Assembly: GCF_003426775.1 (NCBI RefSeq)
Contig: NZ_QJUG01000047.1
Location: 1 to 45,725 of the forward strand
Reading direction: 5' to 3'
Origin: Allorhizocola rhizosphaerae
GTDB taxonomy: Bacteria; Actinomycetota; Actinomycetes; Mycobacteriales; Micromonosporaceae
Length of the DNA: 45,725 nt
This document shows positions 2,224 to 35,628 of the stretch, piece by piece. Under the pieces are notes generated by a model. That model saw only the letters and a list, made by a program, of their open reading frames with translations. It was not told the DNA's origin and searched no databases. Position numbers and translations under genes: made by a program. Numbering within the stretch: position 1 is the first letter of the stretch; each line of letters starts with the position of its first letter.

Positions 2224-2340
2224 GCTGTCGTTGTTACGCTCCCGATGTCTCGTTCCGCGCCCGGTGGTGCGCCGTGTGCGCTTTCCCGCCACCGTGCAGG
2301 CGGAAGCCGTACCGAAAAATCCTTCCGGAGCGTCGCGAAA

Positions 2341-3105: not shown

Positions 3106-3137
3106 AAGCGCGTACCTTCCGCGGTGATTGGAAAAGC

Positions 3138-12022: not shown

Positions 12023-13576
12023 CTAACCCGCCGTCACCGGCCGCAGCCGCCACTTCTGGTTGGTCGCGTAGAGGTATTGCCAGACCAAGACATTGGCGCC
12101 ATTGTCGGCACCGGCGTGGTCGACATCGAGGGCGCGGCCGCCGATTTTTGAGGATATCCGGTACCATCCACCGCCAAGCGCGTCGATATACCACTGCTGG
12201 TTGAGACCATCATTGGACTGCCACTGCAACACGTTCGCACCGTCCACGTCGGACGCGTCGGCGACGTCGAGCAGCTTGCCGCTGTGCACGGCATGCAGCT
12301 GGTATGAGCCGTCGCTCAGGACCCGCAGGCGCCACTTCTGGTTCGCGGCGCCCAGATATTCCCACTGCAAAACGTCGGCTCCGTCGGAGGTGCTCGCCCA
12401 GGCCACGTCGAGCACCTTTCCGCTGTGCCCGGCGGTGAGCACGTAGTCGCCGGGCGGCAGCGGCTGCGCTCCCGGGTCTCCTGAAGGCAAAGCCAGGGTC
12501 GCGCTCGTGGACACCGGCACGCCGAAGTCGGGTGTGCCGTCGGCTCGCCAGTTCACCTTCTGCAGCCGCGTTGCACGGTCTCCCCCGCAGCTGCCGCTGG
12601 GGTTGGTCACCCCGTGGTAGGCCATCCACGTTTGCGTCCCGTCCGGGGACGTGAAGAAGCTGTTGTGCGCGGTGGTGTAGGCCGAGTTGGCCGCCGAGGC
12701 GCGGAAGACCGGCTCCGGAGACTTCGACCACGCCGCCGGGTTGAGCACGTCATCACCGCGGAACGTCAACAGGCCCAAGGCGTAGTTGGGGCTCGTGCAA
12801 CCGCTGGCCGAGTATGCCAGGAAGAGCCTGCCGCCACGCCACAGCGCGGCAGCGCCCTCGTTGACCGCCGCGTGGTCGGACTCCCACGCGTATTGCGGTC
12901 TCGACAGCAGCACGCGCGGGCCGCTGGTCGTCCACGGGTTGCTCATCGGTGCGATGTAAAGGTTTTGCGGGCCTGTCGTGCCGGGCTGCCAACCGGACCA
13001 GATGGCATACAGGCGACCGTCCGGCATGGACAGTACCGTGCCGTCGATCGAGTAGTGATCAGCCGCAGCGGCGAGAGCGCCCTTGAAGCTATAGGGGCCG
13101 AGCGGATCCGTGCCGGCGCTTTCCAAGACGTACATCCGATGGTTGGCCACCGCGTGGCTGCTGTCGGTCGCGGTGTAGTAGATGTACCATTTGCCGCGCA
13201 GTAGATGCATCTCCGGGGCCCACAGCGCGCAGCATCTCGATGCGGTGGTGTCGCGCCACACCACTGTCTCGGGTGCGGTTGCCAGCTCGGTGACGGACGC
13301 CGCCTTCGTGATGGCGATGTGGTCGTTGCGAGTGTATGTCAGGTAGTAGTGACCCTGGTGGGTCACCATGAACGGGTCGGCGCCGCTCTCCTTGACGGGG
13401 TTGCGAAAGCCCGAAGCAGGGTTGCGAAAGCCGGAAGCGGGGTTGCGCGTGACCGCCGTCGATTGCGCTGCCTGTTGTTGCTGCCCACGGGCGGGAGCGA
13501 GGCTCGCCACCGAGCCTGCGGCCGTTGTCGCGAGCACGGCGAAGGCCGTCCAAAAGCGACGGGCTGACAAACGCAT
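12023..13576 (-). CDS. Secreted GH43 glycosidase with C-terminal ricin-type lectin domain
   Basis: 517 residues: signal peptide (1 to about 30), a linker with NPASGFR repeats (45-60), a five-bladed GH43 catalytic domain (about 61-365) and a ricin B beta-trefoil (about 375-517). The three GH43 acids are visible: Asp67 in GADPF, Asp178 in YSIDGT and Glu240 in VNEGAA. The trefoil shows three Q/V-W repeats (QWEYL, QWQSN, VWQYL, each followed by NQ(K/Q)W). GH43 enzymes act on arabinan, xylan or related glycans; exact specificity is not readable. ATG 13576 follows AAAGGAGAGG. It lies 29 bases after the sugar-kinase gene and is probably the end of the operon starting at 17145. Confidence 0.9.
   Translation of the reverse strand: MRLSARRFWTAFAVLATTAAGSVASLAPARGQQQQAAQSTAVTRNPASGFRNPASGFRNPVKESGADPFMVTHQGHYYLTYTRNDHIAITKAASVTELATAPETVVWRDTTASRCCALWAPEMHLLRGKWYIYYTATDSSHAVANHRMYVLESAGTDPLGPYSFKGALAAAADHYSIDGTVLSMPDGRLYAIWSGWQPGTTGPQNLYIAPMSNPWTTSGPRVLLSRPQYAWESDHAAVNEGAAALWRGGRLFLAYSASGCTSPNYALGLLTFRGDDVLNPAAWSKSPEPVFRASAANSAYTTAHNSFFTSPDGTQTWMAYHGVTNPSGSCGGDRATRLQKVNWRADGTPDFGVPVSTSATLALPSGDPGAQPLPPGDYVLTAGHSGKVLDVAWASTSDGADVLQWEYLGAANQKWRLRVLSDGSYQLHAVHSGKLLDVADASDVDGANVLQWQSNDGLNQQWYIDALGGGWYRISSKIGGRALDVDHAGADNGANVLVWQYLYATNQKWRLRPVTAG
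13399..13447. repeat. 21-bp tandem repeats encoding NPASGFR in the GH43 linker
   Basis: GGTTGCGAAAGCC(C/G)GAAGC begins at 13399, again at 13420, and the first 7 bases recur at 13441. The unit keeps frame and encodes (R)NPASGF twice plus RNP. It is a likely length-variable spacer just after the signal peptide. Confidence 0.75.
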
Positions 13577-13605: not shown

Positions 13606-14547
13606 TCAGTCGATGACGGTCGTGTCGGTTGTGGCAAGCAGCCGGTGATAGGGCGGGCGATCCGGCTCGCGCGCGAGAGCCAGCCCGCCACTGAGCGCGT
13701 CGCCTTGCGGACGTACCAAATCCAAATAACCGGCAAGTTCGCTTTCCAGAAGGCTGCCGGGATGCAGCAGCCGACCCGCGTAGCTCACCCGATAGGGGTC
13801 GGTGAGCCCGGCGGCGCGAGCGGCTGCCGTGGCAGTGCGGGCAAGGTCTTGGGCGGCTTGGCACACGATGTCGCGCGCCACCGGATCTCCCGCCTCGGCG
13901 TGCTCCATGACGACCACCGCGAACGACGCGACCCGTGACGGGATGTCGTGTGCCCGCAAGAGCTCTTGTATCGCAGCCACGCTGAGTCCGCCAAGGTGTG
14001 CCGCCGCGGCGTCGACGAGGGTGGTGGGCGCACCGGAGCCGTCGAACGCCGCGAGCGCGGACGAGAGGCCGGCCCGCCCGATCGCGAATCCACTGCCGCG
14101 ATCGCCGAGCAGATATCCCCAACCGTCGGCACGCGCCCAGCGCCCGTCGTGATGGAAGGCGAAGGCGACCGTGCCCGTGCCGGCGCAGATCACGGTGCCG
14201 GGCCCGTCGAGGGCGCCGGCGTGAGCGAGGACGCCGTCGTCGACCACATGGACCGCCGCCCCGCCAAACAGCTCCGCCAGCGACTTCCCAAGCTGCTCGC
14301 GCAGCGCGCCATCAGCGGGCGCACCGGTCAACCCCGCGCACAACCGTTGCACCGGCCCGCTATAGCCGCAAGCAGCCTTGGCTTCGGCGGTCGCACTCAC
14401 GATCGCCGTGAGGTCACCGATCCCCGGTTGATAGCTGAATCCGGGTCCGGTCGCGCTCCAGCGCCCGCCCGGCCCGTCGATGAGCAATCGGAGCTCGGAC
14501 TTGCCGCCGTCGATGACCGCAACGGTCTCGGTCATGGTCTCAGTCAT
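13606..14547 (-). CDS. BadF/BadG/BcrA/BcrD-family kinase (N-acetylglucosamine-kinase-like)
   Basis: 313-residue ASKHA-fold ATPase. Phosphate-1 motif VIDGGKSELRLLI near residue 11, phosphate-2 region VICAGTGTVAFAF, and the GWGYLLGDRGSGFAIG signature shared with N-acetylglucosamine and related sugar kinases. It would phosphorylate a sugar brought in by the ABC importer across the divergent promoter, keeping it in the cell and possibly creating the regulator's ligand. The start ATG 14547 overlaps the stop of the ceramidase-like gene (ATGA), so the two are translationally coupled; an internal ATG at 14535 is possible. Substrate is inferred from the locus. Confidence 0.85.
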   Translation of the reverse strand: MTETMTETVAVIDGGKSELRLLIDGPGGRWSATGPGFSYQPGIGDLTAIVSATAEAKAACGYSGPVQRLCAGLTGAPADGALREQLGKSLAELFGGAAVHVVDDGVLAHAGALDGPGTVICAGTGTVAFAFHHDGRWARADGWGYLLGDRGSGFAIGRAGLSSALAAFDGSGAPTTLVDAAAAHLGGLSVAAIQELLRAHDIPSRVASFAVVVMEHAEAGDPVARDIVCQAAQDLARTATAAARAAGLTDPYRVSYAGRLLHPGSLLESELAGYLDLVRPQGDALSGGLALAREPDRPPYHRLLATTDTTVID

Positions 14548-15875
14548 GTCGCGCTCGCGGCTTCGTGGGCGAGCCGGATCGCCTGCCGGACCAGCGACTC
14601 GCTCTCCTCCAGGGAAAACAGGCTGCTCAGGGCCTCGTATGTGCCCGCCTCGTGCCCCGCCTCGTCGGCCACGTAACCAAAATAGCCATCGCTGTATCCG
14701 ATGACCCTCGTGGTCGTGAATGGGCTGTCCCGCGCGATCCTGGCGGCCAGCGTGCCGAACGGCTCGACGGGCAGGTGCAGCCACGCGACCTCACCGAGGC
14801 TCACCACGGTCATGGGCAGCCGCATCGTCTCGGGCAGCTCCACTTGCGACAGTCGCTGCTGCCGCCGTGCGCCTTCCAAGCGCGTCATGGCGATGCGGGC
14901 GTCCGGCGCCTCCGGCGTGCCCGCCTGGCCACACCATGCCTCCTGCGCGGCGGCGAGTTGCCGTGCGGCGTGTTCCGGTGTCGGGAGTGGACGGACGTGC
15001 AATTCGGCCGCGCCACGGTGCACTCGGGGAGCGTCCACATTGGGCAAGGGCTGGGCGTCGTCGTGCAGCCCGCGCAGCACCGTCCCGCTGAGGATCGCCC
15101 CGATCCGTGCCACCTCGGTGAAGCCCCGGCCTCGGCGCAGCAGGCGTGGGCTCGCGTCGCCCGCTGGGCCCTGCAGGAAGCCGACGATCGGCCGCGCTTG
15201 CCCCCCGCCCGTGAACCCGGCCAGCGCGGTGAGCGCCTCCTCCAGCACGTGCCGTGCGAGGCCGGGCCAATCGGCCGACCAGTGGAGGTTTTCCGGGCCG
15301 AGCACGGTCGGGTGGCTCGCGTAATCGAACAGCATCGCGCGCACCGGCCCACCACCCGGTGCCCGCAGCGCGAGGATGCCGGTGCGGTTGTCGTGCCAGC
15401 CGTCGGGGTGGTGGCGATTGGCGCCAGCATTGGGCGCGGGCACCAGGCACCAGTGCGCTTCGACCGGCTCCGGCCGCACGGCCGCCTGCCGTGCCAGACG
15501 ATCGACCGCCGCGACGAGTTCGCCGATCAGCGCGGCGTCCCGTGCGCCCTCGTCCGCCGGGTGCAGTGGCCCGGTCCAGCCCTCCGGTCCGGAGTGCGTA
15601 TGCGAGGCGCAGACGACGACATTGTCCGCGGGCACAGCGAGCGCACGGGCCACGGCCGAACGCAGATCCGTCGAAAGGCCCACGTCCACGGCGACCGCGT
15701 CAAGGCACAGCCAGGCGACGGCCCCCGTGCCCGTGCCAAGGCAGATGAGCGTTGCCCGCAACGGGTCGTGCGTCCCGAGCGCCGTCTCGCGGCCGCGTGC
15801 TATGTATCCGGCCATCGCATGGCCCGGTTGCGGTGTCACATCGGCCTGCGCGGCGCGCAGCAGCATCGTGCTCAT
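14544..15875 (-). CDS. Neutral/alkaline ceramidase-like hydrolase, cytoplasmic
   Basis: 443-residue protein with the fold signature of the neutral/alkaline ceramidase N-terminal domain: a metal-site motif ASHTHSGPEG, then a conserved WSADWPG and a C-terminal YFGYVADEA segment. True ceramidases are secreted amidases about 650 residues long with a C-terminal immunoglobulin-like domain; this one has no signal peptide and lacks that domain. Ceramidases hydrolyse an N-acyl bond, so an intracellular N-acyl amino-sugar could be the substrate here; that is a hypothesis. I chose ATG 15875 (MSTMLLRAAQ), 4 bases after the dehydrogenase stop, rather than a start at 15920 inside that gene. Confidence 0.75.
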   Translation of the reverse strand: MSTMLLRAAQADVTPQPGHAMAGYIARGRETALGTHDPLRATLICLGTGTGAVAWLCLDAVAVDVGLSTDLRSAVARALAVPADNVVVCASHTHSGPEGWTGPLHPADEGARDAALIGELVAAVDRLARQAAVRPEPVEAHWCLVPAPNAGANRHHPDGWHDNRTGILALRAPGGGPVRAMLFDYASHPTVLGPENLHWSADWPGLARHVLEEALTALAGFTGGGQARPIVGFLQGPAGDASPRLLRRGRGFTEVARIGAILSGTVLRGLHDDAQPLPNVDAPRVHRGAAELHVRPLPTPEHAARQLAAAQEAWCGQAGTPEAPDARIAMTRLEGARRQQRLSQVELPETMRLPMTVVSLGEVAWLHLPVEPFGTLAARIARDSPFTTTRVIGYSDGYFGYVADEAGHEAGTYEALSSLFSLEESESLVRQAIRLAHEAASAT

Positions 15876-15879
15876 CGGC

Positions 15880-17145
15880 TCAGCTGTCGATCCGCAGGCG
15901 GGCCGTGAGCGCGTGGCCATGCATGAGCTCGGCGTCGGCGATGGCCGCGGTGGCCGGGGCCACCAACCGGCTACCCTCCGGCGTAACCCGTTGGTACGTC
16001 ACGGTTTTGAGGAACTTGCCCACCCACAGGCCACCGGTGTACCGGGCCGCGCCCCGGGTCGGCAGCACGTGGTTGGTGCCGATCGCCTTGTCGGAATAGG
16101 CCACTGTCGCATGTGGACCGAGGAACAGCGAGCCGTAGTTGCGCAACCGTTCGAAGTACCAATCGGGATCGGCGGTCTGGACCTCAAGATGCTCCGGCGC
16201 ATACCCGTCCATCACCTCGACCGCCTCTTCGGGCGTCGCGCACACGATCACCGTGCCATGGTCGCGCCAGGCCTTCCCCGCGACGTCGGCGGTCGGCCAC
16301 GTGGTCTCCAGCCATCGCTCCACCTCACGCAGCACGGCTTCGCCGAAGGCACGTGACGTGGTGACCAGCAGTGCCGGGCTGTCCGGTCCGTGCTCGGCCT
16401 GGCCCAGCAGATCGGCCGCCACGACGCGCGGCTCGGCGGACTCGTCCGCGATGACGGCGACCTCGGTGGGTCCCGCGATGAGATCGATGCCGACCCGGCC
16501 GAACAACTGACGCTTGGTCTCGGCGACATAGGCGTTGCCCGCGCCCACGATCATGTCCACGGCGGGCACCCCCTCGATGCCGAACGCGAGCGCAGCGAGC
16601 GCCTGAACGCCGCCGAGACAGACGACGACGTCGGCTCCGCACAGCGCCATCGTGTGCAGCTGTGGCGGGAAGACTCCCTTGCCGTCGCGCGGCGGGGCCA
16701 CCGCGACCACTCGCTCGACGCCCGCCGCCTTCGGCACGGCGACCGTCATGATGGCCGACGCGATCAGCGGATAACGACCGCCGGGAATGTATGAGCCGAC
16801 GGAGCCCACGGGAAGGTGCCGGTGCCCCAGCACCACACCGGGCAGCGGCCGCACCTCAAGGTCGGTCAGGCTGTCGCGTTGCCGGCGGGCGAACTCGGTG
16901 ACCTGCCGGACCGCGAAGTCGATGTGCGCGGCCAGTTCGTCGTCGACCAGCCGCCGCGCCTGCTGCACCTGCTCGGGCCCGACGATGAACGAATCGGGCT
17001 CCCACCCGTCGAAGCGGGCCGAGTAGCGGCGGATGGCCGCGAGCCCTTCCCGCTCCACGTCAAGCAGGATCCTGCTCACCGTCTCGACGATCTCCGGCGA
17101 CGCGGCGGCGGCCGGGCGCCACCCTTCCTTGAGGTATTCGGGCAC
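15880..17145 (-). CDS. Histidinol-dehydrogenase-family NAD-dependent alcohol dehydrogenase
   Basis: 421 residues across the whole histidinol dehydrogenase fold. Zinc and catalytic residues are kept: DLLGQAEHGPDSP (Gln and His ligands), YAPEHLE (the Glu-His catalytic pair), GTNHVLPT and a C-terminal HGHALTARLR His. HisD enzymes make a four-electron oxidation of a primary alcohol to an acid. No other histidine gene is nearby, and relatives in catabolic operons (such as the sulfopropanediol dehydrogenase HpsN) act on other alcohols, so it probably oxidises a sugar-derived alcohol here. The GTG at 17145 lies only 6-7 bases after a -10-like TACCCT and lacks a ribosome site, suggesting a leaderless message. 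An open frame continues upstream over the regulator gene but is out-of-frame shadow. Confidence 0.88.
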   Translation of the reverse strand: MPEYLKEGWRPAAAASPEIVETVSRILLDVEREGLAAIRRYSARFDGWEPDSFIVGPEQVQQARRLVDDELAAHIDFAVRQVTEFARRQRDSLTDLEVRPLPGVVLGHRHLPVGSVGSYIPGGRYPLIASAIMTVAVPKAAGVERVVAVAPPRDGKGVFPPQLHTMALCGADVVVCLGGVQALAALAFGIEGVPAVDMIVGAGNAYVAETKRQLFGRVGIDLIAGPTEVAVIADESAEPRVVAADLLGQAEHGPDSPALLVTTSRAFGEAVLREVERWLETTWPTADVAGKAWRDHGTVIVCATPEEAVEVMDGYAPEHLEVQTADPDWYFERLRNYGSLFLGPHATVAYSDKAIGTNHVLPTRGAARYTGGLWVGKFLKTVTYQRVTPEGSRLVAPATAAIADAELMHGHALTARLRIDS

Positions 17146-17182: not shown

Positions 17183-17198
17183 ACTGGTACGTACCAGT
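17183..17198. promoter_or_regulatory. HutC/DasR-type operator, perfect palindrome
   Basis: ACTGGTACGTACCAGT is a perfect 16-bp palindrome of the ACTGGT-N4-ACCAGT form. The published DasR consensus has the same outer half-sites (TGGT and ACCA). It abuts the -35 box of the dehydrogenase operon and lies between that gene and the GntR stop codon at 17204. The adjacent HutC-type regulator is the natural candidate to bind it. Confidence 0.8.
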
Positions 17199-17203: not shown

Positions 17204-17971
17204 TCAGCGGGCCAGCTTGTGCACCCGCACCACGGCGTCGTAGATATCTCCTCGGTACCAGGAACGCCCGGCTTCGAGCACGAGGCCCTCGGTGTCATAG
17301 CTGACGCCCTCGACCAGCAAGCAGGGTTGCGTCCGCTCGATGCCAAGCAGCGCCGCGTCGGCCGGATCGGGAAGCACCGCGGCGAGCCGGTTCTCCGCGC
17401 TCCCGGCCCGCACTCCCCAGCGCTGTTCGAGCTCGTCGTAGAGCGACCGATCGTTCCAGTCCAATTCGGACAGCTCGGGGAAGCGGTCAAGCGACACGTT
17501 GGTCCGCTCCAGCGCCATGGGCACGCCGTCGGCCGTGCGCAGCCGCTCCAGCCGCAGCACCGGCGAGCCCGCGGCGACCTGCAGCCGGGCCGACAAGGAC
17601 TTGCTGGCCGCCTCGGTCATGGCGGACAGGACCTTCGCGCCCGGTTGCCTCCCACGCCTGCGCATGTCATGGCTGAACGAGGTCAGCAGGTCGATGTGCC
17701 CGGGACGCGGCTCGGCGACGAACGTGCCGTGCCCGTGCCGGCGAAACAGCAGGCCGTCGGCGAGCAGCCGGTCGACGGCCTGGCGCACCGTGGTGCGCGC
17801 GATCCCGTAGTGCTCGGCGAGCACCCGTTCGGAGGGCAGCAGCGCGCCCGGACCCAGCCGGGCGGCAAGCTCCTCGAGCACCGCATACAGCGCGTCTGCT
17901 TTGGACATGCTCGCCGGAAGCCGCCGCCGCAGCGGCGCCTCGGGCGTGGGCTGGTGTTTCGGTCGGGCCAC
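17204..17971 (-). CDS. GntR-family regulator, HutC subfamily (DasR-like)
   Basis: 255 residues: a winged helix (about 24-90; LPSERVLAEHYGIARTTVRQ is the recognition region) and a UTRA ligand domain (about 95-245; LRLERLRTADGVPMALE is a typical stretch). HutC/DasR proteins bind phosphorylated sugars and release ACTGGT-type operators. Three such sites flank this gene, at the promoters of both outward operons, so it very likely represses uptake and catabolism until a sugar phosphate appears. The GTG at 17971 is used here; a Met at 17908 (MSKADALYAV) just before the DNA-binding domain is an alternative. It is divergent from the binding-protein gene. Confidence 0.92.
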   Translation of the reverse strand: MARPKHQPTPEAPLRRRLPASMSKADALYAVLEELAARLGPGALLPSERVLAEHYGIARTTVRQAVDRLLADGLLFRRHGHGTFVAEPRPGHIDLLTSFSHDMRRRGRQPGAKVLSAMTEAASKSLSARLQVAAGSPVLRLERLRTADGVPMALERTNVSLDRFPELSELDWNDRSLYDELEQRWGVRAGSAENRLAAVLPDPADAALLGIERTQPCLLVEGVSYDTEGLVLEAGRSWYRGDIYDAVVRVHKLAR

Positions 17972-17991: not shown

Positions 17992-18007
17992 ACTGGTACA
18001 CACCAGT
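17992..18007. promoter_or_regulatory. HutC/DasR-type operator 2
   Basis: ACTGGTACACACCAGT has both perfect half-sites with a non-symmetric centre. It ends two bases before the -35 box of the importer operon, the same geometry as at 17183-17198. A further lone half-site GACCAGT lies at 17974-17980, next to the regulator's own start. Confidence 0.75.
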
Positions 18008-18009: not shown

Positions 18010-18038
18010 TTGACACAGGTACATACCAGTATTAGCTT
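18010..18038 (+). promoter_or_regulatory. Promoter of the sugar importer operon
   Basis: TTGACA (18010-18015) and TAGCTT (18033-18038) at 17-bp spacing. Operator 3 fills the spacer, so a bound repressor would block RNA polymerase directly. Confidence 0.55.
18015..18030. promoter_or_regulatory. HutC/DasR-type operator 3
   Basis: ACAGGTACATACCAGT differs at one base from ACTGGT-N4-ACCAGT. It sits between the -35 and -10 boxes of the importer promoter. Centre-to-centre distance to operator 2 is 23 bp, about two helical turns, which could allow cooperative binding. Confidence 0.65.
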
Positions 18039-18069
18039 GGCCGCATCTTTCCTGGTGAAGGGAGCGCTC

Positions 18070-19335
18070 GTGGCAAAGCTGGCTCGATGGGTTCTCGCCG
18101 CGGCCGTGGTCGCCGCCGCGACCGGGTGTGCGCCCGGTGGCGCGCCCGCGGACGGGAACATCACGCTGAACGTGTGGGGGTGGCGCACCGAGGACGTGGC
18201 CGCCTACAACAAAATCTTCGAGCGGTACGAGAAGAACCACCCCGGCGTCAACGTCGAGTACCGCGCTTTCAAGAACACCGAGTACAACACGATCCTGCTC
18301 ACCGGGCTGGCCGGCGACGCCGGACCAGACCTCGCCCAGCTGCGCGCCTACGGCGAGCTGCAGCCGAGCATCGCCTCGGGCGGCCTGCTCGCACTCGACG
18401 GGCAGATCGAGGCACTCAAGTCGTTCCCATCGTCCACTCTGGACGGCGTACGGTCCAAAGACGACGGCAAGGTCTACGGCGTCCCGTTCGCCATCCAGAC
18501 CATGCACGTCATCTACAACAAGAAGCTGTTCGCCGCGCACGCAATCGCCCCGCCCGCCACGTGGCAGGACATGACCGCGGGCGCGGACACGCTGCAGTCG
18601 GCGGGCGTCACCCCGTTCGCCGTCACCGTCCGCGACGACTGGATGCTCCCGATCGAGCACGAAATCTTCGGTGCCGGCCGCTACGGCGGGCCGGACTTCC
18701 GCGAACGCCTGCTGCGCGGCAACGCGAAATTCACCGACCCCGATTACGTGGCGTCCATCGAGCTCTACGCGGGCACGACGAAGTACTGGCAGCCCAAGTT
18801 CTCCGGGGTCGGCTACGACGACGCGAAGGCCCTGTTCGCCTCGGGCAAGGCGGCCATGTTCCCCGGCGGTGTCTGGGAGCTGGCCGAGTTCCGGCGGGCC
18901 GTGCCGGACATCGAGATGGGCATCTTCAACGTGCCGCCGCCACCGGACGCCAAGGTGAACAAGACGCTCACGCCCGGTTTCGTGGACGGTTCGTTCGGTG
19001 TGTCGTCGCGGACCCCGAGGCAGGCCCAAGCGCTGGAGCTGGCGCGCTGGATGGCTTCGGCCGAGTTCGGTCAGGCGTTCTCCGACGAGCTGACGCAGAT
19101 TTCTGCGGTACCAGGGACGACTCCCACCGATCCACTGCTCAAGCAGGCATTCGAGGGCTTCCGGGCCAACCCCGGCCCATACCTCATGTACGGCGACTTC
19201 GGCTACGGCACCCCGTCGGGCGCGGAGTTGCTGCGAGCCGGGCTGGCCGACGTGCTGCTGGGCCGCAAGTCGGCTGCCGATGTCGCGTCGGGTCTGCAGC
19301 GCGGTGTCGAGCAGTGGTTCCGGCCTCGTGGCTAA
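18070..19335 (+). CDS. ABC sugar-binding lipoprotein
   Basis: 421-residue solute-binding protein of the carbohydrate (CUT1) type. The signal peptide ends in a lipobox AATGC near residue 19, so it is anchored outside the membrane. The body has the usual features of the family: NVWGWRTEDVAAYNKIFERYEKN at the first lobe (split here: NVWGWRTEDV, AAYNKIFERY), a central GLAGDAGPDLAQL and a WMASAEFGQAF C-terminal helix. GTG 18070 has a GAAGGGAGCG site upstream; an earlier ATG at 18010 would overlap the promoter. Overlaps the first permease gene by 8 bases. Substrate is probably an amino-sugar oligosaccharide, judging by neighbours. Confidence 0.92.
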   Translation: MAKLARWVLAAAVVAAATGCAPGGAPADGNITLNVWGWRTEDVAAYNKIFERYEKNHPGVNVEYRAFKNTEYNTILLTGLAGDAGPDLAQLRAYGELQPSIASGGLLALDGQIEALKSFPSSTLDGVRSKDDGKVYGVPFAIQTMHVIYNKKLFAAHAIAPPATWQDMTAGADTLQSAGVTPFAVTVRDDWMLPIEHEIFGAGRYGGPDFRERLLRGNAKFTDPDYVASIELYAGTTKYWQPKFSGVGYDDAKALFASGKAAMFPGGVWELAEFRRAVPDIEMGIFNVPPPPDAKVNKTLTPGFVDGSFGVSSRTPRQAQALELARWMASAEFGQAFSDELTQISAVPGTTPTDPLLKQAFEGFRANPGPYLMYGDFGYGTPSGAELLRAGLADVLLGRKSAADVASGLQRGVEQWFRPRG

Positions 19336-20245
19336 GCGCGGTGCGGGCAGCAGCGGCCGGGTCGGGTGGACAGCCTTTTTCTGCGGGCCGGCCGCGCTGC
19401 TCTACACGGTGTTCGTCGTCGTGCCGCTGGTGACCGCGCTGTGGTACAGCATCTTCTCCTGGAGAGGCACCACCCAGGGCCCGCTGTCGGGATTGGACAA
19501 TTACGCCACGGTGCTGACCGCTTATCCTTATCAGGACCAGCTTTTGCGGGCCTTCGGCCACAACGGCGTGTTCTTCGTCGGCACAATGCTCGTGCAAAAC
19601 ACCGTGGGCCTGGCGCTGGCCCTGTTGCTGCACCGGGCGCCACTGGGCAGGCGGCTGTTCCAGACGCTCTACTCGCTGCCATACCTGATCAGCCCGCTGG
19701 TCGTGGGATACCTGTGGTCGATGTTGCTGTCGCCGTCCTTCGGGCCGGTCAACGCCGTGCTGGAGGCGGTCGGCCTCGACGCCCTGGCCCGGCCGTGGCT
19801 CGGCGACCCCGGCACCGCCCTGCCCGTGGTGGTTCTGGTCAACGCGTGGCAGTGGGTGGGCGGGCCGATGCTCATCTTCGGCGCGGCGCTCGCGGCGGTG
19901 CCCGCCGAGCTGGAGGAGTCGGCCCGCATCGACGGCGCCTCGGCCTGGAAGACCTTCTGGACGGTCCGCTTCCCGCTGATCCTTCCCACGGTCGGCGTCG
20001 TGACGCTGCTGACCTTCATCGGCACCTTCAACGTCTTCGACCTGGTTTTCGCGCTCGGCGGATCCTCGGGCGGGCCGGGGCAGGCCATGGACGTGCTCGG
20101 GTTGCTGTTCTACCGGCTGGCGTTCCAGGGCGGCGTCAATGCCATCGGCCTGTCATCGGCGCTGGCCATGCTGATGTTCGTCTTCGTTTTCGGGATCTCG
20201 CTGCTGGTCGACCGCATGCTGCGCCGCCGCGAGGTGAACCCGTGA
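19328..20245 (+). CDS. ABC sugar permease, MalF/LacF type
   Basis: 305-residue inner-membrane permease with about six helices. The EAA loop that docks the ATPase reads ELEESARIDGASAWKTFWTV. GTG 19328 lies inside the end of the binding-protein gene (8-base overlap), consistent with tight coupling; the next permease overlaps it by GTGA. No ATPase gene follows. In related actinomycete sugar systems a shared ATPase (MsiK) encoded elsewhere energises several importers, and that is the likely case here. Confidence 0.92.
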   Translation: MAKRGAGSSGRVGWTAFFCGPAALLYTVFVVVPLVTALWYSIFSWRGTTQGPLSGLDNYATVLTAYPYQDQLLRAFGHNGVFFVGTMLVQNTVGLALALLLHRAPLGRRLFQTLYSLPYLISPLVVGYLWSMLLSPSFGPVNAVLEAVGLDALARPWLGDPGTALPVVVLVNAWQWVGGPMLIFGAALAAVPAELEESARIDGASAWKTFWTVRFPLILPTVGVVTLLTFIGTFNVFDLVFALGGSSGGPGQAMDVLGLLFYRLAFQGGVNAIGLSSALAMLMFVFVFGISLLVDRMLRRREVNP

Positions 20246-21066
20246 AGACCACAGCCCGGGGCCGCATCGCCACGCAGGTGCTGCTGTGGGCCTATGCCGG
20301 GGTCGCGGCCGGGCCGCTGCTGCTCGTCGTGCTGGGTTCGCTGCGGCCCAACCAGGATCTGTTGCGCGATCCGCTGGGGTTGCCGCAACGCCCGACCCTG
20401 GCCAACTACGAACGGGCGTGGCAGAGCGCTTCGCTGTCGACGTATCTGTGGAACTCCGTGCTCATCACGGCAGCGGCCGTGGCGCTGTGCACGACTGTGT
20501 CGCTGATGGCCGCCTATCCCTTGGCACGCTGGCACTTTCGCGGTCGTGCCATGCTCGCCGCGTACTTCCTGTCGGGATTGATGCTCCCGATCAAATTGGG
20601 TATCCTGCCCATCTTCTACATGTTCCAGAGCATGTCGCTGATCGACAGCCGGCTCGGCCTCATCCTGCTCTACGCCGCCTCGGGGATTCCGTTCTCCGTC
20701 TTCGTACTGATGGCGTTTCTGCGCGGGCTGCCCCGTGACGTCGAGGAGGCGGCCCGCATCGACGGCGCCGACGAGCTGCGCCTGTTTCGCTCGGTCATCA
20801 CGCCGCTGGCGCGCCCGGCCATCGCGACCGTTGCCGTCTTCCAGATCGCGCCCGCGTGGAACGACTTCTTCTTCCCGCTGGTGCTGTTGCGTTCCACCGA
20901 CAAGTACACCATCCCGGTTGGACTGTCGCGATTCTTCGGCGAGCACGCCGCCGACCGGGGCGCGCTCTATGCGGGCCTGGTGCTCGCGGTGCTGCCGCTC
21001 GTGGTCGTGTTCGTCATCGCCAGCCGCCAGATCGTCGCCGGACTGACCGCCGGCATCGGGAGGTAG
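20242..21066 (+). CDS. ABC sugar permease, MalG type
   Basis: 274-residue partner permease. It has six helices, an extracellular NYERAWQSASLSTYLWNSV segment typical of MalG-type proteins, and an EAA loop VEEAARIDGADELRLFRSV. The start GTG 20242 overlaps the previous stop (GTGA). The C-terminus ends in VAGLTAGIGR, close to the GLTxGAVKG ending usual in this family. It forms the heterodimeric channel with the gene upstream. Confidence 0.92.
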   Translation: MKTTARGRIATQVLLWAYAGVAAGPLLLVVLGSLRPNQDLLRDPLGLPQRPTLANYERAWQSASLSTYLWNSVLITAAAVALCTTVSLMAAYPLARWHFRGRAMLAAYFLSGLMLPIKLGILPIFYMFQSMSLIDSRLGLILLYAASGIPFSVFVLMAFLRGLPRDVEEAARIDGADELRLFRSVITPLARPAIATVAVFQIAPAWNDFFFPLVLLRSTDKYTIPVGLSRFFGEHAADRGALYAGLVLAVLPLVVVFVIASRQIVAGLTAGIGR

Positions 21067-21072
21067 AAAATT

Positions 21073-21813
21073 ATGGAGTATCCCACCATCGCGCGCCGTG
21101 TCGTCGACCATGTGGTGCAGACTCAGGCAGGTGCCATCGAGGCGGCCGCCGATCTGGTCGCCACGGCGATCCGGGCCGGCGCGATCCTGCACGCCTTCGG
21201 CACCGGCCACGCCCGCATCGTGGCGCACGAGCTGTCCGGCCGCGCCGGTGGGCTCGTCCCTGTGAATCTGGTATCCATCAAGGACCTCGTGATGTTCGGC
21301 GGCCAACCGCCCGCCGACATCCTCGACCCCACCGTCGAGCGCGACCCGGCGCTCGCGGCGCGGGTCTACGAACTGGCCGCCCCGAAACCCGCGGATGTCT
21401 TCCTGATCGCCTCCCAGTCGGGCATCAACGGCTCGGTCGTCCAGATGGCTCGCCTGGTCACCGACCGAGGCCACGCGCTGATCGCCATAACGTCCTTGGC
21501 GCACAGCCGATCCGTGCCTTCGCGGCACGAGAGCGGCACCCGGCTGGGCGACCACGCGCACGTGGTCATCGACACCGGTGCGCCGGTAGGCGATGCGGCC
21601 GTGACGCTGCCCGACGGCACGCGCAGCAACGCGGTCTCCTCGCTAGCCGGGGTGCTCATCGCGCAAATGCTCACCGAACGGGTGTGTCGCCTGCTGCTCG
21701 ACTCCGGCATGCGGCCCCCTGTTTACACCTCAATGAACGTACCGGGCGGTGACTCCAGCAACGCCGAGCTCATCGCCGCGTACACGGGTCGCGTGCGGCC
21801 CATCGAACCCTGA
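21073..21813 (+). CDS. SIS-domain phosphosugar-binding protein (UPF0309-like)
   Basis: 246-residue SIS protein. Sugar-phosphate loops are visible as FGTGHARIVAHEL near residue 42 and the SxSG-type motif SQSGINGSV near residue 115. It looks like the UPF0309 group, related to phosphosugar isomerases and MurNAc-6-P etherases. Only 6 bases separate it from the permease, so the imported sugar, once phosphorylated by the BadF-type kinase, is its likely substrate. It lacks the glucosamine-6-phosphate deaminase fold, so the actual reaction (isomerisation, lyase or deamination) is open. Confidence 0.85.
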   Translation: MEYPTIARRVVDHVVQTQAGAIEAAADLVATAIRAGAILHAFGTGHARIVAHELSGRAGGLVPVNLVSIKDLVMFGGQPPADILDPTVERDPALAARVYELAAPKPADVFLIASQSGINGSVVQMARLVTDRGHALIAITSLAHSRSVPSRHESGTRLGDHAHVVIDTGAPVGDAAVTLPDGTRSNAVSSLAGVLIAQMLTERVCRLLLDSGMRPPVYTSMNVPGGDSSNAELIAAYTGRVRPIEP

Positions 21814-21834
21814 CCCTCTCTTCGCGGAGGAAAG

Positions 21835-24678
21835 ATGATCCCTCGTCGTGTCTTACCCGTCCTCGTTGTGGCGCTCGTGGTCGCGGCCGGCCTGCCGGCA
21901 AACGCCGCCCCGCCACCGCCGCCGTCCGCGAGCGAACCGCTGCCGGTCGTCACCCCCACGCCCCAGTCGATGAGCCGGTTCTCCACCGGATTCACTGTCA
22001 GCACCGACGCGCTCACCGGTGCAGTGCACCGGGCGGGCGTCGAGCGTTCCCGTCCCGCCAAGGGATCGGGCGTCACCGTCCACATCGGTCAGTCCGCCGA
22101 GCCGGTCCTGCGCAAGTGGGGCGTGAAAGGCCCGCAGGGCCTGCCTGCCGGTGGTTATGTGCTCGCCATCGGCAAGCACGGCTCCAGCCCCACGATAGCG
22201 ATGTCCGGCGTGGACGAGGCCGGAACGTTCTATGCCGCGCAGACCCTGCGTCAGCTTGTGCGGCACCGAGACGGCACGGCGACGCTGCCCGGCGTGGTGA
22301 TCCAGGACTACCCGGCGTTCGCCTGGCGCGGCGGCATGGAATCGTTCTACGGCAATCCGTGGCCGCAGGCGGACTTGTTGCGGCACTTGGACTTTTTGGG
22401 CCAGCACAGGATGAACGCCTTCCAGTACACGGTGAGCGGTGACCCGCGCACGTCCGGCACGCTGTGGCGCTCGCCGTACCCGCCGAACGAACTGCAAAAC
22501 TTCGCCCAGGCGATCGCTCGGGCCAAGGCCAATCACGTGGAGTTCATCTACCGCGTCAACCCGGAGGCCAACGTCTCCCCCGACCACGGCATCTGCCACG
22601 CGCTGCGGTCCGATCTGGACGCTCTCGTGGCGCGCTATCAACAGATGTACGACATCGGCGAGCGGGTCTTCTCCATCGGCTGGGACGACGTGCGCGGGCG
22701 GTTCGTCTGCAACCTGGATCAGCAGGTGTTCGGCGGTGACCCGGTCAGCCCGCTGGCCGCGGCGCAGGCCCACGTGGTCAATCACGTCTACCAGAACTTC
22801 ATCCGGCCCCGCCCCGACACCAGGCTGCTGACCGTGCCGACCGACTACGCCGGCAACCACATCTCCGCCTACCGGACCCGGTTCGCTCAGCTGATCCCCG
22901 CCGACGTCACCATGTTCTGGACCGGCCCGCAGGTCGTCTCCCCCACCATCACCGCCAACGACCTCGCCCAGGCGCAACAGGCGTTCGGCGGGCGCCGTCT
23001 GCTCATCTTCGACAACTACCCCGTCAACGACTTCGCGCCGACGCACCAGCACCTTGGGCCGCTCGTCGGTCGCGACCCGGCTTTGGCCGCGTCGGCGGTG
23101 GGTTTCCTGGCCAACGAGATGCAGGAGGCCGAGGCGTCGCTGATCTCGTTGTTCACGGTGTCGGAGTATGCCTGGAACCCCTCGGCATATCAGCCGCAGG
23201 AATCGTGGACCAGGTCGCTTCGCGAGTTTGGTGGGGCGGCGTATGAAGCGCTGCGCGCCTATGCGGAGCACTCGCTTTACTCGCCCCTGCATCCGCAGGG
23301 GGCTCCGTCGGTACAAAATAGGATTCTTCAATTCCGCGATGCCTGGCGCAACGGCGGCGACCTTGGCGCTGTCGGAGATGCGATTCTGGCGGAGGTGGCT
23401 CGCGCCCGCAGCGCCCCGGCGCAGCTGCGCGCGACACTGCACAACCCATCGTTCCTTCAGGTGAGCGAGCCCTGGCTGGTGACGCTGGAACACCGCGCGG
23501 CTGCCGCCCAGGCGGCGGTGCACGCGCTGCGCGCTCAAGCGGCCGGTGATCTGGCGACCTATCGTGCGCAACGGCGGGCGATGCGGCAGTCGCTCGCGAG
23601 CGCGGGCGGGACAGGCAAGATTGTTGCCGCCGGGGTTTACGAGCCCCTGTTCGATCTGGTTTCCGGCGCGCGCGGCTCGACGGTTGTGCGGCATGACAGT
23701 GACGCGATGTCGGTGTTTTCGCGCGGGTCCAACGGACATTTGCAAACGTCGTGGCAGACCTCGGCGGGCAGTGGCTGGAACGGATTCACCAGCATCACCG
23801 GCATCACCATGCTGGGCCGTCCGGAAGTCGTCGTGCGGCGCAACGGCGCGATGACGGCGGTCGTGCGCGGCAGCGACAACCGGCTGTGGACCAACCGCCA
23901 GGCCACTCCGGGTGGCACGTGGCAGGGTTGGGTGAAGATGAGCGATGCCGCCGTCGGTGGCGACCCCACCGTGGTGCAGGCGGACGATTTCACGCTCAAC
24001 GTGTTCGTGCGCGGCGCCGATGGCCGCCCGCACACGATTTGGCAGGTGGGCAGCGGCTGGAGTGCGCTGACCGCGCTGCCGGGAGTGTCGATGGTGGGCA
24101 GGCCCGCCGTCGTCGTGGGACTCAACGGCACGATGAGCGCTTATGTGCGCGGCACCGACAATCGTGTGTGGACATCGTGGCAGAGCAGTCCCGGCAGCGG
24201 CTGGAGCGGCTGGGCCAGTCTCGGCGGTTCGGCGGCCGACAGCCCGACCGTGGTGATGAACGACAACGGAGCGCTCAGCGCGTTCATCCGCGGCAATGAC
24301 GGGCTGCTGCACACGTCGTGGCAGTCGGCCGAGGGCAGCAACTGGTCCGGGTTCACCGTCATCCTCCCCGGCCAGACCTTCACCGGCACGCCGGAAATCC
24401 TGGTCAACAACGCCGGAGCCATGTCGGCCTACCTGCGCGGGACCGACAACCGCGTCTGGACCGCGTGGCAGAACCAGGCCGGAGGCTCCTGGTCCGGCTG
24501 GTCGGCGATCACCGAAGCGGCGGTCGCCGCGAGCAGCCCGCAGATAATCGATTCGGCCACGGGCGCGGCAAGCATCTTCGTGCTCAACGGCAGCGGCAAC
24601 ATGCTCACCTCATGGCAGACGTCGTTCGGCTCCAACTGGACCGGCTACGCCAACCTCGGCGGCAGCCTGACCCCCTGA
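21835..24678 (+). CDS. Secreted GH84-type beta-N-acetylglucosaminidase with seven-repeat PLL/DUF346 lectin propeller
   Basis: 947 residues. A Sec signal (1 to about 25) is followed by a GH20b-like N-terminal domain (about 35-155), the GH84 barrel (about 160-450; FSIGWDDV holds the catalytic pair Asp284-Asp285 and RVNPEANVS the start of the binding site), a helical segment (about 470-600), and seven repeats of about 48 residues (610-947) of the form (S/A)x(F/Y)xRGxDNxxWTxWQ...WxGW. The seven repeats should close into a propeller like the PLL fucose/sugar lectins. It would trim terminal GlcNAc from glycans outside the cell and feed the importer upstream. GGAGGAAAG precedes ATG 21835. Codon 7 is TTA, a possible bldA-type control. 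Confidence 0.9.
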   Translation: MIPRRVLPVLVVALVVAAGLPANAAPPPPPSASEPLPVVTPTPQSMSRFSTGFTVSTDALTGAVHRAGVERSRPAKGSGVTVHIGQSAEPVLRKWGVKGPQGLPAGGYVLAIGKHGSSPTIAMSGVDEAGTFYAAQTLRQLVRHRDGTATLPGVVIQDYPAFAWRGGMESFYGNPWPQADLLRHLDFLGQHRMNAFQYTVSGDPRTSGTLWRSPYPPNELQNFAQAIARAKANHVEFIYRVNPEANVSPDHGICHALRSDLDALVARYQQMYDIGERVFSIGWDDVRGRFVCNLDQQVFGGDPVSPLAAAQAHVVNHVYQNFIRPRPDTRLLTVPTDYAGNHISAYRTRFAQLIPADVTMFWTGPQVVSPTITANDLAQAQQAFGGRRLLIFDNYPVNDFAPTHQHLGPLVGRDPALAASAVGFLANEMQEAEASLISLFTVSEYAWNPSAYQPQESWTRSLREFGGAAYEALRAYAEHSLYSPLHPQGAPSVQNRILQFRDAWRNGGDLGAVGDAILAEVARARSAPAQLRATLHNPSFLQVSEPWLVTLEHRAAAAQAAVHALRAQAAGDLATYRAQRRAMRQSLASAGGTGKIVAAGVYEPLFDLVSGARGSTVVRHDSDAMSVFSRGSNGHLQTSWQTSAGSGWNGFTSITGITMLGRPEVVVRRNGAMTAVVRGSDNRLWTNRQATPGGTWQGWVKMSDAAVGGDPTVVQADDFTLNVFVRGADGRPHTIWQVGSGWSALTALPGVSMVGRPAVVVGLNGTMSAYVRGTDNRVWTSWQSSPGSGWSGWASLGGSAADSPTVVMNDNGALSAFIRGNDGLLHTSWQSAEGSNWSGFTVILPGQTFTGTPEILVNNAGAMSAYLRGTDNRVWTAWQNQAGGSWSGWSAITEAAVAASSPQIIDSATGAASIFVLNGSGNMLTSWQTSFGSNWTGYANLGGSLTP

Positions 24679-25795: not shown

Positions 25796-26374
25796 CTAAA
25801 CCGCCGAGTGCGCATTGGGCGTGTCGGCGCGGGAAACACCGTTTCCTGCACCGTCCTCCGGCGACGACTCCGAGCGGATCGGCATGCTGCAGTGCAACGT
25901 GTGGCCGTCGGTGTGGATCGGTTCGGCAATGGAGCGCCAGAACGGTTCGGCTCCGCGGACCCGGGTGTCGGTGTGCAGGTAGATGGCGTCGTAGCCGGGC
26001 GTTTGCGCCACGAACTCGCACGCCATGATGACCAGTTGGCGCGCCAGCCCGTGGCGGCGGTGGTCTGGGCGAACGTACACGCGGAATAGTTGTGCTGTCG
26101 TGCCGGACGGGTATTTTTCGGCGAGCCATCGTGGGTGGGGCGGGTGGTTGGGGCCGACGGCTCGCACGCCGGTGGTCGCGACGATCTGTCCATTGTGGAC
26201 GGCGACAAGCAGGGTGTGTCTTGGCGGCTCCAGATATGCACCATGAAGGTCGATGACGTCGTGGTGCCAGTGTGGCACATAGCCGTAGCCGAAGTCCCGG
26301 TAGAACGTGTCCAGCATGACGCTGCGGGCGCCGGTCAGGTCGGCCTCCCGCGCGGTGCGTACCTCGTAGGTCAT
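25796..26374 (-). CDS. GNAT-family N-acetyltransferase
   Basis: 192-residue acetyltransferase. The acetyl-CoA pyrophosphate loop appears as RPDHRRHGLARQLV (R-x-x-G-x-A form) and is preceded by the beta-4 strand LFRVYVR. ATG 26374 overlaps the stop of the ATPase gene (ATGA), making it the last member of the six-gene transport operon. Its target may be the compound moved by the transporters, for example to detoxify or trap it. The gene ends directly against the remnant of the protease gene. Confidence 0.88.
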   Translation of the reverse strand: MTYEVRTAREADLTGARSVMLDTFYRDFGYGYVPHWHHDVIDLHGAYLEPPRHTLLVAVHNGQIVATTGVRAVGPNHPPHPRWLAEKYPSGTTAQLFRVYVRPDHRRHGLARQLVIMACEFVAQTPGYDAIYLHTDTRVRGAEPFWRSIAEPIHTDGHTLHCSMPIRSESSPEDGAGNGVSRADTPNAHSAV

Positions 26375-27795
26375 CGAGCATCCTCCATCGTTTCCGCGAG
26401 CACGGCGTCCACCGGCCCGTATCGGGTGAGCCGTCCATCGGCCACAACGGCAACGGTGTCCGCGACGGCGGACACGAGGCCAAGGTCGTGTGTGATGAGC
26501 ACCAACGTGCCGGGCAGGCCGGCCAGCAGTGCCACCGAAGCGTTGCGGGTCACCGTGTCCAAAGCGGACGTGACCTCGTCGCACACGAGCACCTCCGGTT
26601 CGGCCAGCAGCGCGCGGGCCAGGGCGGCGCGTTGGAGCTCACCACCGGAGAGGCCGGCCGGCATCCGTGAGGCGGTGTCGCTGCCCACGCCAAGCCGCCC
26701 CAGCGTGGCGTCGGCATGTGCCCGAGCCTCATCGGATGCCATGCCGCGCAACCGGATCGCCGTGCGGGCCACTTGATCGCGGACAGTCCGGCGCGGATCG
26801 AACGCGGCCCGTGCGTCTTGGAAAACGTACTGGATGGCGCGGCGCTGCGCGAGGCTCCTGCCGCCCAGATGCGCGGCCAGCCGCTCGCCGCGCAACCGGA
26901 TCGTCCCGGCCGCTGGTTCATGCAGTCCGGCCAGGCATCGGGCGAGCGTGGTCTTGCCCGAACCGGATGCGCCGACCACGGCCAACCGGCTCCCGCCCGG
27001 TACCGCAAAAGAAATGTCTTGAATCACGGGTTGGCGATAGCCTGCCGTCAGGCCCTCCACCTCAAGCACCGGCTCCGCGGCAGCAAGGGAACCGCCGGCC
27101 CGCGGATGCTGCTCGGCCGCAAGCAACTGCCGGGTGTAGGCGTGCGATGGCGCATGCAGCACCCGCGCCGCCGGGCCGCTCTCACACACCTGACCGTCGC
27201 GCAGCACCACGACGTCGTCGGCAAGCCGGCGGGCGGCGCCAAGGTCGTGCGTCGCGATCACGATGGCCAGACCACGCCGGGCGAGGGCGGCGATTTCGCC
27301 TATCACCGCATCGCGCGTGAGCGGATCGAGCCCCGTCGTCGGTTCGTCGAGCATCAATGCGCTCGGCCCGCCCGCGAGCGCCTCGGCCAACACCAGCCGC
27401 TGCTGCTGCCCGCCCGAGAATTGATGCGGGTACCGGCGAAGCTCCCGCCACGTCAACGGAATCCGCGCGCTGTCGAGCGCCTGTGCGACCGCATCCCGCG
27501 CCGGCCGCCCAGCAGCACGGGCGAACTCACGCAACACCGCGCCGACGCGACGAGCCGGATTCAGAGCGGCGGCGGGGTTTTGCTGCACATAGCCGATGCG
27601 CCCGGCGACCCGGGCCGTGCCGGTGAGCCGCACCCCGGGACGGGCCTCTCCCAACAGCGCGAGCCCGATCGTGGTCTTGCCGCTGCCTGACTCACCGATC
27701 AGCGCGAGCACCCGCCCCGGCCCGACCGTGAAGGAAACCTCGCGCACCAATGCGGTTTCGCCCGCGTACGCGCACAACTGCCGCACCTCGATCAC
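26371..27795 (-). CDS. Fused double ABC ATPase (DppD-DppF type)
   Basis: 474 residues with two complete nucleotide-binding domains. Domain 1: Walker A GESGSGKTT, signature FSGGQQQR, Walker B ALMLDEPTTGLD. Domain 2: Walker A GASGSGKTT, signature LSGGELQR, Walker B VLVCDEVTSALD. In most peptide/nickel importers these are two separate genes. GTG 27795 overlaps the permease stop (GTGA). An open frame extends up to 28602 but only as shadow of the permease gene. Confidence 0.93.
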   Translation of the reverse strand: MIEVRQLCAYAGETALVREVSFTVGPGRVLALIGESGSGKTTIGLALLGEARPGVRLTGTARVAGRIGYVQQNPAAALNPARRVGAVLREFARAAGRPARDAVAQALDSARIPLTWRELRRYPHQFSGGQQQRLVLAEALAGGPSALMLDEPTTGLDPLTRDAVIGEIAALARRGLAIVIATHDLGAARRLADDVVVLRDGQVCESGPAARVLHAPSHAYTRQLLAAEQHPRAGGSLAAAEPVLEVEGLTAGYRQPVIQDISFAVPGGSRLAVVGASGSGKTTLARCLAGLHEPAAGTIRLRGERLAAHLGGRSLAQRRAIQYVFQDARAAFDPRRTVRDQVARTAIRLRGMASDEARAHADATLGRLGVGSDTASRMPAGLSGGELQRAALARALLAEPEVLVCDEVTSALDTVTRNASVALLAGLPGTLVLITHDLGLVSAVADTVAVVADGRLTRYGPVDAVLAETMEDAR

Positions 27796-35627: not shown

Positions 35628-35628
35628 C

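Follow-up and report, generated by a model that had tools for sequence, protein, structure and literature searches.

The stretch of DNA analysed here, 45,725 nucleotides of Allorhizocola rhizosphaerae (contig NZ_QJUG01000047.1; hereafter the window), carries a divergent locus in which a cytoplasmic protein with the fold of neutral ceramidases (Cer), a sugar kinase and a protein of the SIS family probably degrade amino sugars in phosphorylated form through an uncharacterised pathway. On the minus strand, three genes form one tightly packed unit behind an operator-like site of the dre type. The first (15880..17145; PF00815, 434 bits) encodes a dehydrogenase of the histidinol dehydrogenase (HisD) family with a GRYPL motif, and runs from a GTG at 17145 to a stop at 15880. 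Cer (14544..15875; PF04734), put forward here as a Zn-dependent enzyme that removes the acyl group from an amino-sugar phosphate, opens with an ATG at 15875, 4 bases past that stop, and ends at 14544. The gene for the BadF/BcrAD-type sugar kinase, which is NagK/MurK-like (13606..14547; PF01869, 67.6 bits), has its ATG at 14547, overlapping the Cer stop, and ends at 13606. The original prediction had described these three genes as coupled and placed them at 13606-17145, coordinates that proved exact. A further minus-strand gene (12023..13576), for a glycoside hydrolase 43 (GH43) enzyme with ricin-type lectin repeats (PF04616, 212 bits; PF14200, 171 bits), begins 29 bases past the kinase stop and is probably the last gene of the same transcript; judging by eye from the N-terminus, its product is probably secreted.

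The plus strand holds a divergent block (18010-24678) that begins with a sugar-binding protein (18055..19335; PF01547, 113 bits), a distant relative of NgcE that scores 60 bits against TIGR03851, below the cut-off. Two permeases of an ATP-binding cassette (ABC) importer follow (19304..20245 and 20242..21066; both PF00528), then the SIS protein (21073..21813; PF13580; NF002805, 256 bits, over the cut-off), a UPF0309/NagS-like sugar-phosphate protein, and a GH84 enzyme of the beta-N-acetylglucosaminidase type (21835..24678; PF07555, 263 bits). The starts of the binding protein and of the first permease are codon-bias calls. The GH84 protein is probably secreted as well, its N-terminus having been judged by eye; its C-terminus extends into a long series of similar repeats, seen by eye and without a Pfam match, which is possibly a lectin-like domain.

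Between the two transcripts lies, on the minus strand, the gene of a DasR/NagR-like regulator of the GntR/HutC type (17204..17971; PF00392 and PF07702). Scanning with the 16-mer that we take to be the dre consensus gave three dre-like sites (ACTGGTNNNNACCAGT) at 17183 (17183..17198), 17992 (17992..18007) and 18015 (18015..18030), with 0, 0 and 1 mismatches, respectively. At no more than 1 mismatch, these three compare with 0.07 expected in the window, and none of 100 shuffles gave three; when as many as 3 mismatches are allowed, the number of sites is not above chance (10 observed against 10.6 expected). The sites at 17992 and 18015 fall between the regulator gene and the divergent importer, SIS and GH84 genes and, because the site at 17183 sits between the regulator and the dehydrogenase gene, the minus-strand unit has an operator of its own, the operators flanking both transcripts of the locus. 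According to the available part of PMC4333415, GntR/HutC regulators of N-acetylglucosamine (GlcNAc) use are tied to dre-sites. Two traits of the DasR/NagR type are found here, namely a GntR helix-turn-helix with a UTRA effector domain, and dre-type palindromes at the target promoters; together with the Pfam matches, they bear out the earlier description of genes under a DasR-like regulator and opposite an importer, a SIS protein and a GH84 enzyme.

Ceramidase-fold protein, kinase and SIS protein

Cer scores 42 bits against PF04734, above the cut-off, over residues 9-102 only. Its AlphaFold2 model (mean predicted local distance difference test score of 83, predicted template modelling score of 0.89) matches neutral ceramidases with a Foldseek E of 9e-24, far above all other matches listed, and VIA-align superimposes it on 2zws with Z 31.2 (root-mean-square deviation 4.0 over 389 residues) and on 4wgk with Z 29.2, the next unrelated structure reaching Z 4.5. 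Aldehyde oxidases and beta-aminopeptidases, which rank below the ceramidases, were treated as background. By profile alignment, residues H97, H99, R160, H204, E411 and Y448 of 2zws, presumably its Zn site and active site, correspond to H92, H94, R154, H188, E371 and Y401 of Cer, and these six columns are invariant across a 10-row Cer alignment. Cer thus shares with neutral ceramidases the fold of the catalytic domain and six mapped active-site residues; unlike them, it has 443 residues, no signal peptide (by eye) and no C-terminal part, it stands in a sugar operon, and it is only 18% identical to them, scoring 22.1 bits against the full-length neutral ceramidase equivalog NF041649, whose cut-off of 1200 is not reached. 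Cer is the likely N-deacylase of the locus. The kinase scores 64.7 bits against the NagK model NF046058, below its cut-off of 370, and its nearest solved relative is the N-acetylmuramic acid (MurNAc)/GlcNAc kinase 8zo3 (E 7e-19). The earlier proposal of an N-deacylase and a sugar kinase in an amino-sugar locus is supported as likely.

Solved relatives of the SIS protein are 3cvj and NagS (SCO4393) of Streptomyces coelicolor, an enzyme which, in the available part of a 2025 publication (PMC12680351), dehydrates GlcNAc 6-phosphate (GlcNAc-6P) to 6P-chromogen I, a compound that NagA deacetylates in vitro to an enamine/imine. The same part of that source reports N-acetylmannosamine 6-phosphate (ManNAc-6P) as a NagS substrate and glucosamine 6-phosphate (GlcN-6P) as one not used, a 40-fold loss for the S91A variant, and an identity of at least 58.7% within the Streptomycetaceae NagS set. 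Four homologues were assayed there on GlcNAc-6P; three of them, at 26-36% identity, were inactive or negligible, and only the one at 65.5% was active. The window protein is 35.0% identical to NagS over 226 positions, below the level of the Streptomycetaceae set. The essential NagS residues H53, R64, E94 and D179 are kept in all 38 rows of our SIS alignment, the window included; these rows were chosen from the surveyed loci, a poorly aligned MurQ row being excluded and the SIS proteins of loci L070 and L081 not being part of it. S91 is kept in 2 of the 38 rows, the window protein having Pro there; S54 is replaced by Ala in two rows, the window and Virgisporangium (L054), and by Gly in L096, the remaining 35 having Ser. 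The window and this Virgisporangium locus, alike in that Ala, also have Cers of one clade, paired in the Cer tree.

As far as that publication describes it, the NagS/NagA system of S. coelicolor is similar to the window locus in having a SIS/UPF0309 protein with the same four residues and a deacylase acting on amino-sugar 6-phosphates, and in placing GlcNAc uptake and metabolism under DasR, as we propose for the DasR-like window locus. It differs in that the window SIS gene lies between a permease gene and the GH84 gene instead of adjoining dmdR1, and in that a ceramidase-fold enzyme takes the place of NagA as the proposed deacylase. A literature search on UPF0309 gave no match in the open-access library. 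Among the SIS genes of other genomes, one draft genome (L222, 8263-10239, minus strand) has Cer and SIS in a single uninterrupted frame, with an in-frame ATG and, by eye, a ribosome-site-like stretch at the SIS start; a lost stop or a sequencing error is a possible cause. In L226, L230 and L232, SIS relatives at 49-54% identity stand without Cer, next to RpiR-like regulators (by eye) and an ABC importer of their own; this second setting of SIS suggests a MurNAc-like context.

Conserved neighbours of the ceramidase-fold gene

Cer was surveyed across 84,980 species genomes (GTDB r220) with the 10-row alignment and two exact peptide patterns, one of which misses the window's own Cer. The 80 loci considered are the best 80 of 241 confirmed stretches; in 24 of them, Cer lies less than 5 kb from a stretch end, and all 80 were kept as the denominator. 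A relative of the HisD-family dehydrogenase, sought at E 1e-4, was found in none of these 80 loci, nor in any of the 20 loci with short flanks from a phylum draw, in which Cer was present in 17 of 395 other genomes at E 1e-15. The reverse survey covered 27 other family loci and 29 class loci of the dehydrogenase with 1.5 kb flanks (the class draw had 35 other matches, 29 of which gave loci), as well as 20 larger regions of family loci, and Cer, the kinase, SIS, NanE and GH84 were near the dehydrogenase in 0 of 27, 0 of 29 and 0 of 20, respectively. The dehydrogenase was likewise in none of 20 SIS-centred regions, hand-picked from SIS matches. The three minus-strand genes, proposed originally as a set, were therefore rejected as a conserved trio (0 of 80 Cer loci, 0 of 56 other dehydrogenase loci). 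Such trios elsewhere could be missed, because the patterns were exact, only the best 80 of 241 stretches were taken and 24 of the 80 loci end close to Cer.

What recurs instead is a unit of kinase, in some cases NanE, Cer and SIS, with an ABC importer and a GntR regulator. SIS stands beside Cer in 18 of the 80 loci, kinase and SIS together accompany it in 10, and all three were found in 11 of the 20 SIS-centred regions, with NanE too in 3 of these 11. Counting also the single frame of L222, SIS belongs to the set from which the original prediction had left it out. Within the family, 200 genomes were drawn, and 14 genomes other than the window's yielded 15 Cer loci at E 1e-10 (L018 and L004 being fragments of a single gene, and L006 counted although tblastn at 1e-4 did not recover Cer in it); with short flanks, kinase and SIS were both present in 9, one of them in 2 and neither in 4. 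Importer genes 55-68% identical to those of the window stand in L214-L218, L222 and L224, which are 7 of the 11 regions, as well as in Terrabacter (L087) and Streptosporangium (L110). In these loci, a GntR gene accompanies the order binding protein, permease, permease, kinase, Cer and SIS, although SIS did not appear in L110. The window seems to hold a rearranged version of such an operon, in which SIS has remained with the importer, and Cer and the kinase lie on the other strand behind the dehydrogenase gene. In a 47-row tree, whose several long branches leave the deep order unsure, the window Cer falls in a clade with those of Amycolatopsis and Virgisporangium (13 rows, support 100/99). Because it thus groups apart from the Cers that accompany the importers most like the window's, two divergent Cer clades appear to occupy the same operon slot.

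A second context is formed by the phosphotransferase system (PTS). Of the 80 loci, 18 have a mannose/sorbose-family PTS no farther than 5 kb from Cer, 13 have the BadF kinase there, and none has both; Pfam searches on example loci identified PTS IIB, IIC/IID and IIA, as well as NanE. All 14 Amycolatopsis loci have the PTS, and in the 7 of them that were scanned a window-type operator (0-1 mismatch) stands about 45 bases before the PTS-Cer operon. In an Erysipelotrichaceae genome (L062) and an uncultured bacterium (L065), a mannose-family PTS operon at about 7.9-11.7 kb has Cer between its IIC/IID and IIA genes, and the cluster also includes NanE and NagA; in L025 (genome G297, 1522-3910), Cer, a PTS IIA gene and SIS stand side by side, joining the two contexts. 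Altogether, Cer was seen next to SIS, PTS or kinase in Actinomycetota, Coprothermobacterota, Chloroflexota, Bacillota and archaea. A PTS phosphorylates its sugar during import. Since this yields a phosphosugar and Cer adjoins the PTS, the substrate of Cer is most likely phosphorylated, and Cer probably acts after sugar phosphorylation. For the same reason, the 18 PTS loci disfavour the order suggested originally, with deacylation preceding phosphorylation.

Several observations weigh against tying Cer to phosphorylated amino sugars. Its match to PF04734 scores a modest 42 bits. SIS is absent from the 5 kb on either side of Cer in the 14 Amycolatopsis loci, one of which is truncated by the end of its contig; 49 of the 80 loci, among them many of Verrucomicrobia and further distant groups, lack both PTS and kinase over that distance and may encode unrelated ceramidase-fold enzymes; and the 20 loci of the phylum draw have SIS in 2, PTS IIA in 1 and the kinase in none. 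Outside Amycolatopsis, an operator-like site (at most 2 mismatches) stands beside the regulator or GH84 gene in 4 of 15 loci scanned (L087, L215, L221 and L224), and the operator is therefore not common to the whole group. Finally, NagA lies within 8 kb of Cer in 9 of the 80 loci, where Cer therefore probably does more than stand in for NagA. Loci of Coprothermobacter (L064, L076), Thermococcus (L067) and Desulfurococcales (L066) combine Cer and SIS with NagA and a further SIS protein that is GlmD/AgaS-like, the two archaeal loci (L066, L067) also having MocA/TIM-barrel neighbours; in Terrabacter (L087), a GlmD-like gene directly follows SIS, and in L096 MurQ adjoins the Cer context.

Candidate pathway and the role of the dehydrogenase

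The gene order, the operators, the catalytic residues, the recurrence of Cer with SIS and kinase, and the alternation of PTS and kinase are directly supported by the sequences. We give a probability of roughly 0.6 to the reading that the locus is a DasR/NagR-type regulon for one amino sugar, covering its release, import, phosphorylation, deacylation by Cer and SIS chemistry at C2. The probably secreted GH84 enzyme, perhaps with the GH43 enzyme, would free an N-acyl-hexosamine, most simply GlcNAc, which the ABC importer would bring into the cell and the BadF kinase would convert to the 6-phosphate. Cer, as a cytoplasmic Zn amidase, would then strip the acyl group off the phosphorylated sugar or a derivative of it, and SIS would perform C2-centred chemistry next to the deacylation, either deamination/isomerisation or a dehydration of the NagS type. 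The dehydrogenase, apparently added in this lineage, would probably oxidise an aldehyde or alcohol product to an acid. In this scheme, we infer the identity of the substrate, its acyl group, the order of steps and the role of the dehydrogenase. The arrangement is similar to that of Aga/Nag operons such as the aga locus of E. coli, where PTS or kinase, a deacylase and a SIS-family enzyme come together; it differs in that the window deacylase and its partner are not orthologous to AgaA, NagA or NagB. The nag genes of B. subtilis have, like the window, a GntR/HutC regulator with a dre-type operator.

The original prediction held that NagA and NagB are missing, which is true of the window. Elsewhere in the genome, a 493-contig draft (96.7% complete, 3.2% contamination), a NagA homologue 33% identical to that of E. 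coli lies on contig C235 (29914-30855), where neighbouring genes encode a kinase of the ROK type, a regulator of the DeoR type and a protein that matches SIS weakly (19.5 bits, cut-off 25), so that a genome-wide absence of NagA was rejected. NagB was not found in the draft with the E. coli query (for which no control was run), nor with TIGR00502, a model that matched 8 of 14 control genomes, 4 of them over the cut-off; NagA and NagB were therefore not found together. The genome also holds a GlmD-like double-SIS gene on C59 (checked with Pfam) and a weaker relative on C475, a second relative of the SIS protein on C22 (47%), and two genes of the KDPG (2-keto-3-deoxy-6-phosphogluconate)-aldolase family (PF01081).

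The closest solved relatives of the dehydrogenase are HpsN enzymes (418 bits, against 255 bits for E. coli HisD). The available part of PMC11382572 gives the motif GSAPL for HisD and GRY(A/S)H, with the sulfonate-recognising His126, for HpsN, the dehydrogenase of (R)-2,3-dihydroxypropane-1-sulfonate. Like HpsN, the window protein keeps E318, H319, D352 and K353; unlike it, it has Leu in place of His126, and HpsN identity was rejected. With HisD, it shares the family, the catalytic Glu-His pair, the Zn-site Asp and the Pro-Leu end of the motif, which nevertheless reads GRYPL and not GSAPL; a role in histidine biosynthesis was rejected, as the same genome has a better HisD match on C439 (515 against 434 bits). 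Because GRYPL, present in 42 of the 56 other dehydrogenase loci (the Lys being present in all 56), differs from both motifs, the window protein looks like a third type within the HisD/HpsN family. GRYPL-type genes also stand near a PIG-L de-N-acetylase, a D-serine dehydratase-like gene, an amidohydrolase, an ABC importer and DMFA2_C (L168, L164 and L160).

With no Cer, kinase, SIS, NanE or GH84 gene near it in any of the other loci surveyed, the dehydrogenase is apparently a local addition to the transcript in this lineage, outside the conserved set. It is possible, at somewhat less than even odds, that it is only co-regulated and acts on another substrate, a polyol or sugar-derived alcohol, the amino-sugar pathway being independent of it. 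Besides those surveys, the setting of its nearest relative agrees with this: a gene at 71% identity in a draft genome of 1.8 Mb (G867, contig C104; L265, 13-5718) lies in an operon of sugar/polyol type, ordered FCD-type GntR, 2-hydroxyacid dehydrogenase, short-chain dehydrogenase/reductase, AP_endonuc_2 TIM barrel, HisD and GFO/IDH/MocA. On the other side, the Cer-kinase transcript of the window begins with the dehydrogenase gene, which has its own dre-like operator directly in front of it and is separated from Cer by 4 bases. If it does serve the pathway, an alpha-amino or alpha-keto aldehyde, oxidised at its C1 aldehyde, would be a chemically closer target than a primary alcohol, the oxidation of which, as proposed originally, found no direct support.

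For a pathway through Cer and SIS, two orders remain, and the simplest is that Cer acts first in a non-orthologous Nag route, which we consider tentative and, taken by itself, somewhat unlikely. The kinase would give GlcNAc-6P, Cer in place of NagA would give GlcN-6P, and SIS in place of NagB would give fructose 6-phosphate, with the dehydrogenase on a side branch from GlcN-6P to glucosaminate 6-phosphate. Kinase, Cer and SIS are the recurring enzymes of the actinobacterial operons, NagB was not found in the draft genome, and the PTS-Cer pair of Amycolatopsis parallels the pair of PTS and AgaA. Moreover, AgaS, a SIS-family protein, is a model for a SIS deaminase/isomerase, GlcN-6P is an alpha-amino aldehyde like histidinal, and distant NagS homologues failed on the acetylated GlcNAc-6P in the available part of PMC12680351. 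This order is opposed by the fact that SIS keeps the catalytic residues of NagS, which in that same part of the source does not use GlcN-6P, and by the coexistence, in several phyla, of Cer and SIS with NagA and GlmD/AgaS-like proteins; because such loci also hold GlmD/AgaS-like SIS genes, SIS need not be the deaminase.

The reverse order, with SIS acting first as a dehydratase, seems to us clearly less probable. GlcNAc-6P or ManNAc-6P would become 6P-chromogen I, Cer would release an enamine/imine that loses ammonia spontaneously to give 3-deoxy-hexosulose 6-phosphate, and the dehydrogenase would oxidise the aldehyde at C1 of this compound to give KDPG for the Entner-Doudoroff aldolase. The first two compounds follow the NagS and NagA reactions in the available part of PMC12680351, and NanE, present in the operon of several lineages, fits with ManNAc-6P, a NagS substrate in that source. 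The four essential residues kept in 38 of 38 rows and the two KDPG-aldolase-family genes of the genome are consistent with this order, which would also account for Cer and SIS alongside NagA and GlmD-like genes elsewhere and would give the dehydrogenase a natural task. Nevertheless, the window SIS (35%) falls within the 26-36% range of the three homologues inactive or negligible on GlcNAc-6P in PMC12680351, and it has Pro for S91 and Ala for S54. No dehydrogenase of this type stands at any other Cer locus among the best 80 of 241, and no relative of HisD is known to us to use an alpha-keto aldehyde as its substrate. Still less probable is a complete, dedicated dehydrative pathway of this kind, from SIS, Cer and ammonia loss to KDPG made by the dehydrogenase, that joins the Entner-Doudoroff route without NagA or NagB.

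That Cer instead removes a non-acetyl acyl group (e.g., N-glycolyl) or cleaves another amide, such as that of a muramic acid derivative, and so feeds NagA or NanE, is improbable: its coexistence with NagA in 9 of the 80 loci and with MurQ in L096, and the MurNAc/GlcNAc kinase nearest to the window kinase, are in its favour, but the 20 SIS-centred actinobacterial regions gave no NagA or MurQ match and there is no direct evidence of an unusual acyl group.

Elsewhere in the window lie two genes for type VII secretion, EccD and EccB (33645-37050), and the genes of a dipeptide/nickel-type ABC importer (26371-31053; SBP_bac_5, two permeases and a double ATPase), the latter apparently unrelated to the sugar locus.

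Overall, the amino-sugar theme of the original prediction holds with its membership corrected, as SIS belongs to the set and the dehydrogenase looks local. Among the matches listed in the open-access literature, subscription papers being outside the scope of the search, none placed a ceramidase-fold protein in sugar catabolism. Given that Cer is paired with SIS, PTS or kinase across phyla, the function of one such operon would help to assign two widespread families, the cytoplasmic Cer proteins and the UPF0309 proteins outside Streptomyces, and the same operon would reveal the real role of the NagS homologues that failed on GlcNAc-6P.

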